In this document: positions 1 to 5,035 of the stretch, piece after piece
Numbering within the stretch: position 1 is the stretch's first letter
How the letters are laid out: each line of letters begins with the position of its first letter
Source: Syntrophobacterales bacterium
GTDB taxonomy: Bacteria; Desulfobacterota; Syntrophobacteria; BM002
Direction: 5' to 3'
DNA length: 5,035 nt
NCBI GenBank assembly: GCA_030613915.1
Contig: JAUWKY010000196.1
Location: 1 to 5,035 of the forward strand
The notes under the pieces: generated by a model
The model's input: only the letters and a program-made list of their open reading frames with translations
Told to the model about the DNA's origin: nothing
Databases searched by the model: none
Translations under genes and position numbers: made by a program

Positions 1-933
1 GGCCGGCACAATGTACCGGGCGAAATGTGATCTTCCCTTGATCCGAGTCAAAAAGGAAAAGGCGGCGAGCACCTGCAGGTTGCGGCACAGTGCGACATGA
101 GGGTATTTCTGCAGAAACTCATCAACTGAACTTTCGGTCAACGTACCGAATGCTCTGCTGTATGCTGTCAACAACTCTTGCTGAATCGCCTCCGGCAGTT
201 GCACGTAGGGATCTAAAAGGAGCGCCGCCAGATCGTATTGAGGGGGACCTAAACGCGCTCCCTGAAAGTCTATGAGGTAGAGGAGATCACCCTTCAACAT
301 GAGGTTGCGTGACTGAAAATCTCGGTGCAGGAAAAACAGCTGTTCGCCTCCTTCTCCCGCTTGCGACGCCAAAAGGGAAAAGTCTCGCTCCACATAATTA
401 GAATCTATTTCCAGTCCGAGCGCTCCCACCAAAAAACTCCACCTGAAGTATTCCAACTCCCGTTCGATGATGAATTGTTGGTTGTATACGGAAGTATCAA
501 AACAATGTCGCGTTTCTAGACCCTCGGTGGCTCGTACTTGCATCTTCAGGAGCACGTCAATCGCCTGGCCATAGTGAGCGGGCAGGCGCTCAGCATCTGC
601 CACCACTGCATCCTGGAGATGAACCGAGCCTAAGTCTTCAACAAGAGTCAACCCCTCTGAGCGATGGTAACCATAGATTTCTGGTACAGGGACACCTTTC
701 TGGAGCAGATGCCGGCCAAGGTAAACGTAAGAATCGTTCTCATTAGGAAAGGTCTCATCTCCTGGTGGGCTCCAAATCAAGATCAGGCTTTCCTTCTGGC
801 TGGCCACCCGATAGAAAGTACGCTCCGACCCGTCGCCATGAAGCGGTTGCCAGCGCAAAGATCCACTCAGTACGGTATTCTCCCGAATCAACTCTTCAGC
901 TCGGCTTTTTGGAAATTCAGGCCGTCCTTTCAA
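1..933 (-). CDS. amgK: AmgK-like cell-wall amino-sugar kinase (APH/choline kinase fold), partial, C-terminus off the left edge
   Basis: Reading the minus strand from 933 gives 311 uninterrupted codons running off the window. Visible motifs: a glycine-rich N-lobe stretch HGDGSERTFYRV (residues 32-43), LVEDLGS (97-103), the catalytic loop HRDFQSRN (203-210; D205 the presumed base, N210 a metal ligand), LIDFQGARLGPP (220-231; D222 the DFG-like metal ligand) and QYDLAALL (232-239). The HRDFQSRN/DFQGAR/YDLA combination is characteristic of AmgK, the kinase that phosphorylates MurNAc and GlcNAc at C1 in peptidoglycan recycling; it is not a drug-resistance APH. Known AmgK proteins are about 340-350 residues, so some 30-40 are probably missing. 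The start is taken as TTG at 931-933: an AGGGGG lies 9 nt upstream, an in-frame stop lies just beyond, and the first in-frame ATG is not until residue 131. It lies 99 bp downstream of the nucleotidyltransferase gene, probably in the same transcript. No signal peptide, so cytoplasmic. The family call is firm; the substrate is inferred from family and context. Confidence 0.88.
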   Translation of the reverse strand, partial: MKGRPEFPKSRAEELIRENTVLSGSLRWQPLHGDGSERTFYRVASQKESLILIWSPPGDETFPNENDSYVYLGRHLLQKGVPVPEIYGYHRSEGLTLVEDLGSVHLQDAVVADAERLPAHYGQAIDVLLKMQVRATEGLETRHCFDTSVYNQQFIIERELEYFRWSFLVGALGLEIDSNYVERDFSLLASQAGEGGEQLFFLHRDFQSRNLMLKGDLLYLIDFQGARLGPPQYDLAALLLDPYVQLPEAIQQELLTAYSRAFGTLTESSVDEFLQKYPHVALCRNLQVLAAFSFLTRIKGRSHFARYIVPA

Positions 934-942
934 AACAAGAAA

Positions 943-948
943 CCCCCT
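943..948 (-). promoter_or_regulatory. Ribosome binding site deciding the TTG start of the kinase
   Basis: On the minus strand AGGGGG is followed by a 9-nt spacer and then TTG at 931-933. An ATG closer to the repeat array, at 957-959, is in a different frame and meets a stop after a few codons, so this site supports TTG as the real start. Confidence 0.55.
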
Positions 949-979
949 GGTAGTTTCGCATTGCGCCTTTCACATTTAT

Positions 980-1056
980 CATTCCGCAATCCCAAATCCG
1001 CAATCCGAAATTCGAAATCTACAATCCTCAATCTACAGTCTAAAATCTAAAATCTG
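980..1056. repeat. Degenerate heptanucleotide tandem array, 11 units in strict 7-bp register
   Basis: From 980 the plus strand divides into eleven consecutive 7-mers fitting approximately MAATCYR: CATTCCG, CAATCCC, AAATCCG, CAATCCG, AAATTCG, AAATCTA, CAATCCT, CAATCTA, CAGTCTA, AAATCTA and AAATCTG (980-986 through 1050-1056). No unit breaks the register. The array occupies most of the gap between the nucleotidyltransferase and the kinase, and its distal end lies inside the nucleotidyltransferase reading frame. Short heptameric tandem repeats (STRRs) are known from intergenic regions of filamentous cyanobacteria; this is a similar class of object by form only. It is not a CRISPR, since there are no spacers. 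Function is unknown. Confidence 0.85.
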
Positions 1057-2010
1057 CCCTCTCCCCTCTGCCCCGATCACTACTCCCTCCAGGGACTCCG
1101 TGACCACCACTCCATCACCAATAATACTGTCTCGGATCGAACAACCACTTCCAATGGTAACCTGTTCCCAGATAACGCTCCTCTGAATCCCAACTCCATG
1201 CTCCAGTTCACATCCGGCCCCGATGCAGACCATGTCATCGAAATGAACTCCTGAGCCAAGACGAGCAGATTCATGAACTACTGCTTTGCCGTCAACCTGA
1301 AGTCTCGGCACCGGAGCTCTTGACATTCGGAAAAGATCCTCATGCATCTGGAGATACCCGTGCAGGCTCCCCAGCTCTCGCCAGTACTCATCCTGGACCA
1401 CGTGAGCCATTACCTTTTCTCCCCCGGCAATGAGTTGGAGGTAACAATCAATGATGGACGAGGGGGTGCCAGCCGGAATCCCAGCGAGCACCCTGCGCTC
1501 CAGCACCTGAATTCCGGTGAAGGCCAGGTGCTGTTCAGAGCCACCGCTGAATCCCAGAATACGGCCGTCACTGGCCACCTTTACCCCGTTAAACAGCGGC
1601 TCATCTTTCAGAACCAATGTTACGGTAGCACCAGAGTCCTCATGACTACGAAGCACCGCCTGGAGATCAATTGCGCTGAGGATATCCCCATTGACAACCA
1701 CCAAAGGACGCTGATCCCAAAAATCCATAACATTGCGGATGCCGCCACCTGTACCCAACAATGTCTTCTCCACCCGCAGGTGCACAGGAATGGGAAAGTC
1801 CGATCTCTCAATATATTCTATCAGCTTTTCACTGAGATGATAGATATTGACTATCACCTCCTCTGCCCCGCCTGAGCAAAGATAGGCAACCAGCCAATCC
1901 AACAACGGCTGATTCTGCACTGGAACCAACACCTTTGGTCTGCTCAGGGTCAAGGGCCGGAGTCGCGTCGCCAAACCAGCAGCCAAAATCATCGCTCTGA
2001 AAGATTTCAT
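1033..2010 (-). CDS. MurU-like NDP-sugar nucleotidyltransferase with C-terminal left-handed beta-helix
   Basis: A 325-residue cytoplasmic protein. Residues 1-225 form a nucleotidyltransferase core: MILAAGLATRLRPLT (7-21) with PK (25-26) is the nucleotide-binding signature, LLGTGGGI (84-91) resembles the MurU/HddC type, VVVNGDI (104-110) supplies the metal-binding D109, FTGIQVL is at 164-170, and YWRELGSLHGYL (209-220) occupies the position of the usual W-x-D-x-G-T motif. Residues about 240-305 are hexapeptide-type repeats (ESARLGSGV, IGAGCEL, SVIWEQVTIG, SIIGDGVVV), a left-handed beta-helix like that of mannose-1-phosphate guanylyltransferases. Pseudomonas MurU is about 225 residues and lacks it. 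Joined to an AmgK-like kinase and divergent from NagZ, the likely reaction is MurNAc-1-phosphate + UTP to UDP-MurNAc + PPi. A GDP-mannose or heptose-1-phosphate nucleotidyltransferase is the alternative. The ATG at 2008-2010 directly precedes the conserved core; its ribosome binding site (GGTG, 4-nt spacing) is weak. The last seven residues and the stop come from a heptamer repeat. Confidence 0.82.
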   Translation of the reverse strand: MKSFRAMILAAGLATRLRPLTLSRPKVLVPVQNQPLLDWLVAYLCSGGAEEVIVNIYHLSEKLIEYIERSDFPIPVHLRVEKTLLGTGGGIRNVMDFWDQRPLVVVNGDILSAIDLQAVLRSHEDSGATVTLVLKDEPLFNGVKVASDGRILGFSGGSEQHLAFTGIQVLERRVLAGIPAGTPSSIIDCYLQLIAGGEKVMAHVVQDEYWRELGSLHGYLQMHEDLFRMSRAPVPRLQVDGKAVVHESARLGSGVHFDDMVCIGAGCELEHGVGIQRSVIWEQVTIGSGCSIRDSIIGDGVVVTESLEGVVIGAEGRGQILDFRL

Positions 2011-2101
2011 CTCTCACCGAAAAGTGGCCAAATACTACTGCAACGAAATGTCAGCAACCATTGTCATGCCCACGCAGAAGTGGATGCCTCAATGTAATCA
2101 C

Positions 2102-2127
2102 TGGACAAACTACGGCTTATATATAAT
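2102..2127 (+). promoter_or_regulatory. Candidate sigma-70-like promoter for nagZ (weak)
   Basis: A perfect TATAAT occurs at 2122-2127 in the run TATATATAAT. The best -35-like element, TGGACA (2102-2107), lies only 14 bp upstream, shorter than the usual 16-18, so the match is poor. The same A/T-rich core offers TATAAG or TATATA on the minus strand, so it could serve either direction. Used for nagZ, it would give a leader of roughly 180 nt that includes the inverted repeat at 2191-2269. Confidence 0.25.
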
Positions 2128-2190
2128 GATTCTCTGCGTCATATAGCAGATGTTGTCCGCAGGAGCAAATGGACCGCTTGAAACCAGTGT

Positions 2191-2269
2191 ACCACAACGA
2201 AAAACACGAAGATCACAAAGGTTACGATGTTGGCAAATTTCTCTTTGTGTCCCTTGTGAGCTTTGTGGT
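2191..2269. repeat. Imperfect inverted repeat of the CACGAAG/CTTTGTG type upstream of nagZ
   Basis: The left arm 2191-2220 begins ACCACAA and ends CACAAAG; the right arm 2243-2269 begins CTTTGTG and ends TTGTGGT. These 7-bp ends pair perfectly, with imperfect pairing between and a 22-nt loop (2221-2242). The right arm itself is a loose repetition of CTTTGTG, CTTGTG and CTTTGTG. Similar A/G-rich CACAAAG/CACGAAG intergenic repeats are, as I recall, dispersed in several environmental bacterial genomes. It ends 48 bp before the nagZ start, so it could fold in the nagZ leader RNA. It lacks the G/C stem plus T-run of an intrinsic terminator. Confidence 0.6.
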
Positions 2270-2302
2270 AATTTCCTTCTGCTCGTTTATTGGCTCGCAG
2301 AT

Positions 2303-2307
2303 GGAGG
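2303..2307 (+). promoter_or_regulatory. Ribosome binding site of nagZ
   Basis: GGAGG lies 10 nt before the ATG at 2318-2320. This spacing supports the chosen start, and translation from it yields the beta-strand and helix pattern expected at the NagZ N-terminus with no signal sequence. Confidence 0.65.
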
Positions 2308-2317
2308 TTCTTAGGCA

Positions 2318-3358
2318 ATGAAGCTTCAGGAAAGGCTTGGCGAGTTGCTGCTGGTTGGTTTTATGGGAGAGGAAATGAATACTTCATTGGCCGCCCACAT
2401 CCGCGATTTACAGCCAGCAGGTCTCATATTTTTTAGCAGAAATATCAGTGGACCTGAGCAGTTGGCTCAGCTAACCCGTGATATTCAGACTCTTGCCTTG
2501 CAGGAACTCGGACGTCCCCTTTTGCTGGCTGTGGATCAGGAAGGAGGCTCTGTAGCCAGAATGGGGCCACCCTTCACTCAAATTCCGGATGCTGTTAGCC
2601 TGGGAAGAAGTGGCTGTGAGTTGGCGCGCCACTACTCACGGCTCACCGCCCGTGAGATGTTCCAGGTGGGTTTGAATCTGAATTTGGCACCGGTTCTGGA
2701 TGTCAACACCTCAGGTGCAGCTGGGGTAATGGAGCAACGGTCCTTCGGAGATGACCCTTCCCTGGTGACTCAATGCGGTATTGCAGCCATCAGCGCAACT
2801 CAGGATGAAAATATAATGGCCACTGCCAAACATTTTCCTGGACTGGGGCGCGCCCACAATGATCCTCACCACGACCTCCCAGTGGTATCAGCTGAGGGAG
2901 AAGAACTTGAGCGCACTGATCTACCTCCTTTCAGAGCTGCCATCCAGGCAGATGTGGCCTGTGTGATGACCTCTCACACCCTCTACCCGGCGCTTGATCC
3001 AGAGAACCCTGGCACTTTTTCTCCCACCATTCTCCGCAACCTACTGCGAGCTCAACTGGGCTTTGATGGTGTGCTCATCACTGATGACCTGGAAATGGGG
3101 GCGGTTGTTGAGCGATATTCTGAGGCGGATGCTCCAATCGCGGCTTTACAGGCTGGTGCTGATCTGTTGTTGGTTTGTAACGATTTGGAAAAGATGCATC
3201 TAACAGCTGAAGTCGTTTTGGATGGTCTGAATCGTGGGATGCTCGACCCGCAAGATTTGGCTCTTTCTCTCACCAGGGTGGCAAAGCTTAGAAAGACGTA
3301 TCTAGACCCCCCCCATTTGGCTGATGTGGCCACTGTGGCCACTCACTTCTCCACCTGA
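2318..3358 (+). CDS. nagZ: NagZ, cytoplasmic beta-N-acetylhexosaminidase (glycoside hydrolase family 3)
   Basis: A 346-residue protein covering a single GH3 TIM barrel, the length typical of Gram-negative NagZ. It hydrolyses the beta-1,4 bond of GlcNAc-1,6-anhydroMurNAc muropeptides to give GlcNAc and anhydroMurNAc-peptide in peptidoglycan recycling. Visible landmarks: AGLIFFSRN (34-42), AVDQEGGSVARM (71-82) for substrate binding, NLAPVLDVN (122-130), QRSFGDDP (140-147), KHFPGLG (171-177), the flexible catalytic loop with D182-P-H184 (the Asp-His general acid/base pair; Ser/Thr is more usual between them), CVMTSHTLYPALD (215-227) and ITDDLEMGAV (254-263) with nucleophile D256. No signal peptide or lipobox, so it acts in the cytoplasm. 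It is divergent from the nucleotidyltransferase-kinase pair, matching a shared pathway. Its last 16 bp overlap the convergent YihY-like gene. Near its 3' end are a C8 tract and a duplicated 9-mer, both after the barrel, where sequence change should be tolerated. Confidence 0.95.
   Translation: MKLQERLGELLLVGFMGEEMNTSLAAHIRDLQPAGLIFFSRNISGPEQLAQLTRDIQTLALQELGRPLLLAVDQEGGSVARMGPPFTQIPDAVSLGRSGCELARHYSRLTAREMFQVGLNLNLAPVLDVNTSGAAGVMEQRSFGDDPSLVTQCGIAAISATQDENIMATAKHFPGLGRAHNDPHHDLPVVSAEGEELERTDLPPFRAAIQADVACVMTSHTLYPALDPENPGTFSPTILRNLLRAQLGFDGVLITDDLEMGAVVERYSEADAPIAALQAGADLLLVCNDLEKMHLTAEVVLDGLNRGMLDPQDLALSLTRVAKLRKTYLDPPHLADVATVATHFST
3307..3314 (+). repeat. Homopolymeric C8 tract inside the nagZ 3' end
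   Basis: Eight consecutive C bases encode part of D330-P331-P332. Adding one C would end the protein five residues later (PPPFG, then TGA); losing one would read through into a different, longer tail. The catalytic barrel is complete upstream, so slippage here would alter only the tail. Confidence 0.6.
3325..3342. repeat. Tandem 9-bp duplication forming a G/C-rich hairpin in the convergent overlap
   Basis: TGTGGCCAC occurs twice head to tail (3325-3333 and 3334-3342) and encodes VAT-VAT near the NagZ C-terminus. Each copy contains the palindrome GTGGCCAC, so either transcript can form a 6-bp GTGGCC/GGCCAC stem with a 5-nt loop (3326-3342). On the minus strand the hairpin follows the YihY-family stop codon directly. 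Neither side has a T-run, so it is not a standard intrinsic terminator, though it is the only strong hairpin I see between the two converging genes. Confidence 0.55.
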
Positions 3359-4761
3359 TTTACCCCAAGTTCTGCGCTGACTTCACCGTCTGTGATTTCG
3401 TCAGTTTCCGCGCTAAGGTCATCAGTCTCATCTTCGCTGTCGGCGAATTCCTCTTTGGCTCTAGCCAGCAGAGCGGCCACACTCAGACCTTCAACTCCCT
3501 CTCTCCCCTGCTCACGGACGAGGCTGAGAATTTCTTGTACAATATCCCCGTAGCCGTTCGGGGCTGTGGCGCCCTCGATTGACTTCCTCTCTTCGAGTCC
3601 TTCCACTAGATCAAAAACCATGAGGTGCTTCAGGTCTATTGCCGGCAGGACTTCAAAGCCATTCTCCCCGCTCGCCTTGAGAGCTCCTAGATTCTCAAGA
3701 CGCTCCGTGATCGCCCTCGTCTCCTCCGCCGGTATTTGCATTCTTTCTGCCAGTTCCATTATTGTTGGCGGCGGTTTGCCCGCCTCGAAACATTTGCCAA
3801 CCAAAAGGAGTAACTGCAGTCCCCAATAACTTTTATTTCCGGTGGGCTGCGCTCGCCACCGCTGTTTTAAACGGAACTTTGCCAGATTCTGGTGGGCGAA
3901 AGCGATCTCTGCGCCTAATAGTAGGATGACCCAGCTAACGAAGACCCATATGAGGAGCACGGGGAGCTGTGACAGGGCGCCGTAGATAGCACCATAGGTT
4001 TGAAAGCCAAACTGATAGTGAATATAGGCCCACTGCGAGAACTGCCAGAGGGTTCCACCTATGATCCCGCCAGCGGAGGCGGAGATCGGGTTCACCCGCG
4101 TGTTGGGCATGAAAAGATAGACGAAGGAGAAGGCCAACCACATCACGAAAAATGGGGCCAGTTTCAGCACATACACATAAAGTCGGCCCAAGAAGTCTAT
4201 GGATAAAAGTTGCTGGGTTACGAGATGGCTCTTTACAAAGGTTGTCAGACTCACGGCCACAAACATGGCTACTGGCAGGATCACCACCAAGCCCAGATAA
4301 TCGCTGCATTTTCTCAGCCAGGGTCTGCCGCGATCCACTTCCCAGATCTGGTTGAAGGCCATTTCAATGTTGGTCAGTACCAGAATCATGGTAACGAAAA
4401 GAAATGTTATTCCCAGAGTACCGAGTGAACCCACGTGGATACGGGAGACGTATTCCATAATGTATTCGGTGACCGGGTGGGAGCCGCCTGTGAGCCTCTC
4501 TAGGATGAAGGGTTCCAGGGCCCGTTGCACCCCCAGTCCTTTCAACAGTGCGAACATAAGAGCCAGAAGAGGCACCAGGGTTAGCAGGGTGGTATAGGTG
4601 AGACCGGAAGCTCGCAGCAAACTGTTGTCCCGCCAGAACTCTTGCCAAACGTAGGTCGCAAGCTGCAATTGCTTATAAAGGAAGCCTTTGAGGCGTGGCA
4701 GTTTATCAATTTCAACCAACCATATGTCATTGCCAAAAAATCTTCGGATACGATTGGACAT
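3343..4761 (-). CDS. YihY/BrkB-family inner-membrane protein with C-terminal cytosolic extension
   Basis: A 472-residue protein. Residues 30-300 match the YihY/virulence factor BrkB family (once misnamed ribonuclease BN): ASGLTYTTLLTLVPLLA (51-67), NIEMAFNQIWEVDRGRPWLR (131-150) and GAIYGALSQLPVLL (257-270) followed by LLGAEIAFA (281-289). About six hydrophobic segments can be placed near 54-76, 115-135, 155-176, 198-218, 228-248 and 265-288. The basic N-terminus before the first segment suits an inner-membrane protein with a cytoplasmic N-terminus. Residues 301-472 form a soluble tail beyond the usual length of about 290: a helix-turn-helix-like stretch TIMELAERMQIPAEE (333-347) and a very acidic end (438-460). 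The biochemical function of the family is unsettled; transport or envelope roles have been proposed. The ATG at 4759-4761 has GGAGG 4 nt upstream. The gene converges on nagZ with a 16-bp overlap and starts about 40 bp from a large palindrome that may affect its expression. Confidence 0.9.
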   Translation of the reverse strand: MSNRIRRFFGNDIWLVEIDKLPRLKGFLYKQLQLATYVWQEFWRDNSLLRASGLTYTTLLTLVPLLALMFALLKGLGVQRALEPFILERLTGGSHPVTEYIMEYVSRIHVGSLGTLGITFLFVTMILVLTNIEMAFNQIWEVDRGRPWLRKCSDYLGLVVILPVAMFVAVSLTTFVKSHLVTQQLLSIDFLGRLYVYVLKLAPFFVMWLAFSFVYLFMPNTRVNPISASAGGIIGGTLWQFSQWAYIHYQFGFQTYGAIYGALSQLPVLLIWVFVSWVILLLGAEIAFAHQNLAKFRLKQRWRAQPTGNKSYWGLQLLLLVGKCFEAGKPPPTIMELAERMQIPAEETRAITERLENLGALKASGENGFEVLPAIDLKHLMVFDLVEGLEERKSIEGATAPNGYGDIVQEILSLVREQGREGVEGLSVAALLARAKEEFADSEDETDDLSAETDEITDGEVSAELGVNQVEK

Positions 4762-4799: not shown

Positions 4800-5005
4800 T
4801 GTCTTTACCCTAATGTTGCATACCCAAACCGGTAAAAATCGCTACGCTCGCGTGATAGTGCGCCATCCGCGAGCGTGCTCGCCTCGGACAGGATCTCACG
4901 TACGGTCAAGTACTGTTCATCCTGTCCCAGCCTGCGCGCGCCCACATTTGGCGCACTCTGACGCGTTTTTCCTCGGCGTGGGTATGCAACGTCAGGGTTA
5001 AGATA
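4800..5005. repeat. Large nested palindrome, MITE-like or structured-RNA element
   Basis: The outer arms 4800-4825 and 4980-5005 pair at 22 of 26 positions by Watson-Crick rules, including an 11-bp perfect block GTTGCATACCC/GGGTATGCAAC. The stem continues inward with CCGG (4829-4832) against CC..GG, AAAAA (4834-4838) with TTTTT (4966-4970), CGCGT (4849-4853) with ACGCG (4961-4965), and AGTGCGCCA (4857-4865) with TGGCGCACT (4949-4957). The centre is a 9-bp stem GGACAGGAT (4886-4894) with ATCCTGTCC (4919-4927). Taking 4808-4997 as the element, with ends CCCT/AGGG, a TTA direct repeat flanks it (4805-4807 and 4998-5000), as a 3-bp target duplication would. There is no credible coding capacity. 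It could be a non-autonomous transposable element or a folded RNA; I do not recognise its family. Confidence 0.7.
4844..4876. repeat. Alternative hairpin inside the palindrome
   Basis: ACGCTCGCG (4844-4852) and CGCGAGCGT (4868-4876) are perfect 9-bp inverted arms with a 15-nt loop. The loop carries AGTGCGCCA, which is also complementary to TGGCGCACT at 4949-4957. Part of this hairpin (4849-4853) competes with the long-range CGCGT/ACGCG pairing. Confidence 0.55.
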
Positions 5006-5029
5006 ATGAAATGATGAATTTCAGTCAAT

Positions 5030-5035
5030 AGGAGA
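5030..5035 (+). promoter_or_regulatory. Possible ribosome binding site of a gene beyond the right edge
   Basis: The window ends in AGGAGA on the plus strand, after an A/T-rich stretch (5003-5030). No start codon with a lasting frame follows inside the window. If real, a plus-strand gene would start a few bases past the edge, divergent from the YihY-family gene. Confidence 0.3.

Follow-up and report, generated by a model that had tools for sequence, protein, structure and literature searches.

What is the large palindrome that lies upstream of yihY in this genome, and how did it come to be there? The window, the whole stretch of 5035 bases that was analysed, is contig C203 of a 2.25-Mb draft genome (351 contigs, 79% complete), and the palindrome occupies its terminal part. 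A sequence-only reading had described positions 4800-5005 as one self-complementary unit and had proposed a miniature inverted-repeat transposable element (MITE), with a branched structured transcript as the alternative. The comparisons made here firmly support the MITE reading, in that copies, empty sites and covariation were all found. The element is very probably a non-coding MITE copy of ~190 bp that was inserted between genes at a TWWA site with duplication of 4 bp, likely by a DDE-type transposase acting in trans.

We examined the extent and fold of the window copy (Table 1). Direct reading confirmed the outer 26-bp arms, with 22 pairs between 4800-4825 and 4980-5005. The inverted arms at 4802-4842 and 4963-5003 (41 nt, 78% complementary), the inner arms (30 nt, 73%) and the central stem (12 nt, 92%) were likewise real. 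The 4800-5005 segment folded at -101.8 kcal/mol (z -9.9) and was far more stable than its dinucleotide shuffles, none of 200 of which equalled it. The exact element spans 190 bp and agrees with the unit with CCCT/AGGG ends that had been proposed. Its minus strand formed three inner hairpins and had a fold energy of -107.3 kcal/mol (z -10.65); the three hairpin domains claimed at the outset thus hold for the window copy but not as the usual family form, as three loops on that strand were seen in 9/62 copies. The longest ORF within or crossing the element is 62 aa, indicating that it is non-coding. Rfam covariance models gave no match to the window, either at the gathering threshold or at E values up to 5.

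Table 1. Features of the window and of the yihY upstream region (window positions unless another stretch is named)
Feature	Position	Strand	Basis or remark
MITE copy, 190 bp, CCCT...AGGG	4808..4997	-	strand "-" is the best-folding strand in nearly all family copies
Left terminal inverted repeat, CCCTAATGTTGCATACCCA	4808..4826	+	end pattern, aligned copies
Right terminal inverted repeat, CCCTGACGTTGCATACCCA (- strand reading)	4979..4997	-	probably from another copy
Left TTTA of 4-bp target duplication	4804..4807		partner TTTA on contig C211, same genome
Inner inverted arms, 4849-4878 / 4936-4965	4849..4965		repeat search, fold, covariation
Central hairpin, arms 4883-4894 / 4919-4930	4883..4930		repeat search, covariation
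Contig right flank, probable misassembly (or recombination) through repeat	4998..5035		93% identity to right flank of C57 copy
yihY/BrkB-family membrane protein gene (PF03631), insertion in 5' region	3343..4761	-	domain match
TTGGCA-N6-TTGCTT motif	L103 420-470 (contig C211); L191-L198		upstream of yihY

The element belongs to a family of uncultured Desulfobacterota from sediments, with the ends CCCTAAYGTTGCADACC, also written CCCTAAYGTTGCA. As the sequence-only reading had predicted, many copies were found in the same genome and in relatives. Sequence search recovered 17 full-length copies in the own genome (78-100% identity, all 17 aligned), together with one copy truncated at a contig end and shorter pieces and derivatives. 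The terminal inverted repeats (TIRs) are common to these 17 and to a 62-copy alignment of the family. With up to two mismatches allowed, the 19-base end pattern matched 47 times in the own genome, compared with once for a reversed control. The element was present in 9 of the 59 genomes searched, comprising 8 of the 9 genomes of the genus (G006 being the sole member without it), 1 of 3 others of the family (G009) and none of 47 more distant ones. Matches were few in G008 (1), G002 (4) and G004 (5), and the end pattern alone occurred once each in G010 and G011, which is the control level. The exact 18-base end pattern was found in 2 of 395 genomes of the phylum, G007 and the genome that holds the window. 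When named genomes were scanned, the ends turned up in 96 stretches of uncultured Desulfobacterota assemblies. The 80 stretches listed include Syntrophobacterales CSMAG_766, Desulfobacteraceae BM002, bin435, bin617, bin63, ALJrbin.12, ALJrbin.32, ALSabin.159 and FCS_Desulfobacterota_29; also among those listed are single contigs of 4484_190.2 and Desulforhopalus GLR1684 and two contigs of CSMAG_30, in which inward end pairs lie 87-198 bp apart. Plasmid and phage collections gave no match to the element. End-pattern matches in viral contigs proved to be three copies of one sequence with the second end absent, and look like chance.

Altogether, 102 distinct copies occupy 93 distinct insertion sites. 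One insertion lies at an identical site in three genomes (L168 in G008, L166 in G007 and L137 in G004), and some copies are therefore old; L137, the aligned copy of the three, still folds (z -4.3). Solo ends without a near partner occur at many genome places (L090 4297, L094 2619, L096 2280, L184 1704 and others), conceivably either as decayed copies or as one-ended events. At L115, L139, L157 and L289, elements abut another end with one TTAA-like site in common, an arrangement that would arise when a new copy enters the duplication left by an older one. No published description of this MITE family from a Desulfobacterota genus was found, judged by the best-ranked titles and abstract openings and with the literal end sequences included in the search.

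We next asked whether the copies follow an insertion rule. From 98 inward-facing end pairs, five longer than 218 bp and three with N in the right flank were removed, leaving 90 for the duplication test. Identical 4-mers flanked 23 of these 90 copies, against a shuffle mean of 10.7 and a maximum of 22 in 2000 shuffles. When duplication lengths from 1 to 12 were compared, the excess appeared at 4 bp alone, and it sits at the two inner positions of the 4-mer (62% and 61% identity, compared with 41% and 46% expected). The target reads TWWA, the commonest flank pairs being TTTA/TTTA (8), TAAA/TAAA (7) and TTAA/TTAA (6). Neither TTTA nor TAAA is a palindrome, which identifies the flanking 4-mers as direct duplications rather than as outward continuations of the inverted repeat. 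The TTA flanks predicted earlier were thus right as to a direct duplication and wrong as to its sequence and length, which are TWWA and 4 bp. As for the TTA direct repeat reported around the window element itself, it mixed two loci; the duplication at yihY is TTTA. An exact 4-bp duplication was absent in 67/90 copies; this would be expected where copies have aged or, in a few cases, where their ends have shifted.

Empty sites had also been predicted, and they were found at yihY in G001 and at six further sites. Homology of the window to its three nearest relatives (G001, G003 and G007) ends at 4806/4807, the left end of the element, and the yihY locus of G001 reads TTGTATAAAGACAGAC, with the insert absent. 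Contig C211 of the own genome carries ssb (PF00436), an intergenic region and then TTGTATAAA followed directly by CCCTAATG, which is the other element end. The yihY junctions of the own genome are thus TTGTATAAA joined to CCCT on C211 and AGGG joined to TAAAGACAGAC on the minus strand of the window. Taken together, these junctions give TAAA-element-TAAA, and the G001 allele is therefore the exact empty site; across the two contigs, the site shows a perfect TTTA/TTTA duplication. The start of the same ssb-like gene is readable upstream of yihY in G001, G002, G003, G004, G007 and G008, and no element was present at the yihY position in the sequences read from G002, G003, G004, G006, G007 and G008. 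The second site, on contig C57, lies 5' of a gene of the OmpA family, whose G005 orthologue matches PF00691. G005 and G007, and more distantly G002, show both flanks with an empty site between them; in G006 the right flank alone is visible and the element is absent. Among the loci compared, junction-spanning matches were obtained for 16 of 108 copies, short-flank copies being skipped. Six of the 16 read as empty sites (the C57 site again, in L002, and those of L008, L003:1503, L117, L308:1302 and L165), three of them with a discrepancy of a base or two. The remaining ten consist of tandem copies, partial elements and matches that are gapped or weak.

The flank to the right of the window element is foreign to the yihY locus of relatives, and bases 4994-5035 match the right flank of the C57 copy at 93% identity. 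This flank probably derives from another locus, the contig end having been misjoined through the repeat, and the right half of the window element may therefore belong to that other locus as well. The first ~350 bases of C211 (L103 1-350) are A+T-rich, unlike the rest of that contig, and are joined inside the element; they matched none of the four stretches compared and are likely contamination or a misjoin in the draft genome. Alternatively, both odd joins may have arisen by recombination between copies. On C57, a 106-base chromosomal stretch separates the element from a further solo right end (L090 6955-7076), and the window right flank matches the beginning of this stretch. A two-ended composite carrying host DNA is conceivable there.

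Folding was compared across the family on an alignment of 62 of the 102 distinct copies. Even on the plus strand, 59/62 copies folded with z below -4 (30 shuffles each). When the plus-strand hairpin of the window was placed on the 62 copies, 88.3% of cells paired, compared with 30-46% for slid versions. Both-side changes occurred in 28 pairs versus 15.0 in shuffles, and the covariation score was 0.129 versus 0.071, a value reached by none of 500 shuffles; related sequences may exceed such shuffles without structure, so that the score alone is not proof. RNAalifold gave a consensus of -58.9 kcal/mol on the minus strand versus -17.0 on the plus strand with default scoring, and of -147.1 versus -131.0 with RIBOSUM scoring, where standard pairs made up 94.6% versus 90.9%. 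The covariation that had been suggested as a check was thus borne out by both-side changes beyond shuffles and by a minus-strand consensus. The plus-strand consensus is weak because the minus strand folds better: it did so in 61/62 copies (mean -106.1 versus -87.3 kcal/mol), in 37/40 further copies and in 5/6 short derivatives, and DNA parameters also favoured it in 61/62 copies. The alternative of a structured transcript therefore gained support for folding, on the strand opposite to the one that had been written out. One consensus pair of the minus strand is CG in 22, UA in 22 and UG in 18 of the 62 copies. In the plus-strand comparison, pair 7-199 of the TIRs reads CG in 28 copies and UA in 27.

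We further counted changes at 66 strand-neutral pairs. On plus-strand letters, Watson-Crick pairs changed to A-C, which is a wobble on the minus strand, 116 times and to G-U 56 times, as counted by parsimony on a quick maximum-likelihood tree of related copies, with gene conversion outside the model. The A-C to G-U ratio was 26:4 on internal branches and 90:52 on terminal ones, and counting by pairs gave an excess of 32:10 (p = 0.0009). The direction was the same for pairs taken from the plus-strand fold (107:55), the minus-strand fold (94:60) or both (56:29), and sister copies alone showed a weaker bias (53:33, p = 0.04). Unpaired columns had balanced transitions (45:44). Paired columns taken one side at a time were nearly balanced as well (G>A plus T>C 145, C>T plus A>G 141), a point against the folding reading, but many transitions of the second kind there repair A-C pairs. 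Since strand-neutral mutation in a palindrome makes both mismatch classes equally, we read the A-C excess as selection on one strand. Folding of one strand in single-stranded form, whether as RNA or as DNA, was thus probably selected, most clearly in ancestral lineages, a reading to which these counts lend moderate support. It is possible, though on the doubtful side, that propagation depends on one strand folding, in which case the hairpin would be part of the life cycle, selected in spreading lineages and relaxed after insertion.

The family copies are intergenic: among the 48 site entries that were classified, of 93 sites, 2 fall inside an ORF call. Their orientation to tandem neighbours was unbiased (17 versus 12, p = 0.46; strict ORF calls, one entry per site), as it was in two stricter settings (12 versus 9 and 11 versus 9). 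A bias of 34 versus 18 tandem neighbours obtained with loose ORF calls (83/95 rows classified) was gone with the stricter calls. Upstream of yihY, the motif TTGGCA-N6-TTGCTT, which by consensus we take to be a sigma-54 promoter, is exact in 9 of the 10 genomes surveyed and differs by one mismatch in G010; the survey left out G005 and G011, which showed distant yihY relatives only. The element of the own genome lies 7 bases downstream of this motif, so that transcription would begin within or next to the element and place the minus-strand fold ahead of yihY. A yihY transcript carrying the minus-strand hairpin in its leader is accordingly a prediction, as is an effect on yihY, and sigma-54 regulation of a BrkB/YihY protein would be of interest. 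Other family members lie near yihY at L191 702-844 (G003), L192 1249-1354 (G007) and L198 1089-1379 (G009), which makes the stretch look like a repeated target. Elsewhere in the window (1-3358), adjoining genes carry APH kinase, sugar nucleotidyltransferase and glycoside hydrolase 3 domains, presumably an AmgK-MurU-NagZ cell-wall recycling cluster. Another kind of repeat, A+T-rich, degenerate and built of AATCC/AAATCT units, was seen by eye in intergenic positions at window 965-1060 and at L090 2330-2470 and 5150-5200.

An insertion sequence sharing the ends of the element had been anticipated; it was searched for in the own genome, G005, G007, G009 and 11 long end pairs, and was not found. 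The own draft genome contains no IS1380-type transposase (PF13701). None of the PF13701 matches, found in G005 (under the cut-off), in G007 and in G009, is flanked by inward-facing MITE ends, and the inverted repeats surrounding the IS1380-type gene of G007, tried as a partner, gave no clear TIR. In G005, a single contig, all 53 end matches pair at MITE distance only, with no longer element; in G009, no autonomous element was seen among the end matches listed, of 108. The loci compared contain 11 distinct long inward end pairs, including the 2040- and 3871-bp pairs of G009. These hold 23 ORFs of at least 130 aa, of which 20 were scanned: none had a transposase domain and four had no domain at all. 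As transposase candidates these ORFs were rejected, being ordinary genes (MreB, PilZ, NusG, TetR, T2SSE, GGDEF and others) or domainless. PF13843 (DDE_Tnp_1_7) was found in 0/12 genomes, with its controls equally silent. As a transposase-bearing relative was not found, we infer that movement in trans by a DDE-type transposase is likely.

Several other explanations have to be weighed against the MITE reading. That the inverted repeat is an assembly artefact might be suspected from the chimeric look of the contig end; the recurrence of the element in nine genomes that were assembled separately, G002, G005 and G009 each as a single contig, reduces this chance to practically nil, and the artefact reading is refuted for the element and stands for the 38 bases at the contig end listed in Table 1. 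A non-mobile regulatory part of the host, such as a cis-acting RNA or a terminator of yihY, would account for the very stable fold, the position upstream of yihY and the covariation, but not for many copies beside unrelated genes or for the empty yihY locus in G001. As the primary identity it is refuted by empty site and copy number and has hardly any probability left, whereas regulation acquired after insertion stays possible. A REP/REPIN-like palindrome mobilised by a Y1 (RAYT) transposase would also be palindromic and intergenic with a conserved single-strand fold. Neither target duplication nor long TIRs are expected of Y1 transposition, however; the family has both, and the duplication statistic argues against Y1, which leaves this origin highly improbable. 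The ends of IS1380 begin with CC and its duplication is 4-5 bp. With its CCC ends and TTAA-like target, the family could have been derived by deletion from an IS1380-like (or bacterial piggyBac-like) transposon. The TWWA target with its 4-bp duplication would fit such an origin, and piggyBac is described in PMC7351741 as integrating at TTAA. Against such a derivative stand the PF13701 matches in three genomes that lack these ends and the 20/23 ORFs scanned in the long pairs, none with a transposase domain, and we consider it a serious but somewhat unlikely origin.

The covariation itself could stem from palindrome-templated mutation, in which template switching corrects one arm after the other, instead of selection. 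In line with this, both arms change together even in the TIRs (pair 7-199), and in 28 cases one Watson-Crick pair was replaced by another along a single branch (12 terminal, 16 internal). Under arm correction, however, the two mismatch classes would be expected to fare alike; A-C mismatches reverted to Watson-Crick pairs 10 times on internal and 9 times on terminal branches versus 0 for G-U, and it is on internal branches that A-C mismatches are most in excess. Templated mutation is therefore unlikely as the explanation, though far from negligible, and selection on one strand is the reading we retain.

The many copies, conserved ends, 4-bp duplication and empty sites show that the MITE inserts between genes at TWWA and duplicates 4 bp; the mover is likely a borrowed enzyme, putatively a DDE-type transposase acting in trans. 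The window copy sits between a sigma-54-like promoter and yihY, and the strand that a yihY leader would carry is the one whose folding the family has kept. Because there is no orientation preference toward genes, one-strand folding would more likely serve the element itself, as RNA or single-stranded DNA, than the host. Filled and empty sites thus define the target of a MITE family in a genus met as metagenome assemblies only. By comparing wobble with mirror mismatches, the strand test tells selection on one strand apart from palindromy as such; if the strand effect holds, a single-strand versus a duplex role of bacterial MITE hairpins becomes testable by counting.

Among known systems, REPINs are palindromic, non-autonomous and intergenic, being pairs of short REPs tied to Y1 enzymes, and the window family is unlike them in its long TIRs and target duplication. 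IS1380 and piggyBac transposons are alike in the TTAA-like 4-bp target and the CCC ends, and no transposase gene with these ends was found. The Correia/NEMIS elements of Neisseria differ from the window family in ends and target and resemble it as small MITEs with TIRs and a hairpin-forming strand; as described in PMC2229807 and PMC10969869, they have 24-bp TIRs and an RNA hairpin, and RNase III cleaves their transcripts. The enterobacterial ERIC/IRU elements, as outlined in PMC2229807, measure 127 bp, are multi-copy with target duplication and have transcripts that fold into long stem-loops, and their orientation matters for the effect on mRNA. The window family shares the copy number, the long stem-loop fold and the target duplication, and differs in its 190-bp length, TWWA target, absence of gene-orientation bias and absence of an Rfam match. 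QMITE2 of Coxiella burnetii, as depicted in PMC10969869, consists of a direct repeat, TIRs of 23-29 bp and a core of 113-145 bp, has a transcript with a predicted fold at about -113 and has a duplication of 7-9 bp; compared by description only, it is like the window family in combining TIR, core and direct repeat with strong folding, and unlike it in the duplication (4 bp versus 7-9 bp). By analogy, this MITE family may work like the ERIC, Correia/NEMIS and QMITE elements.
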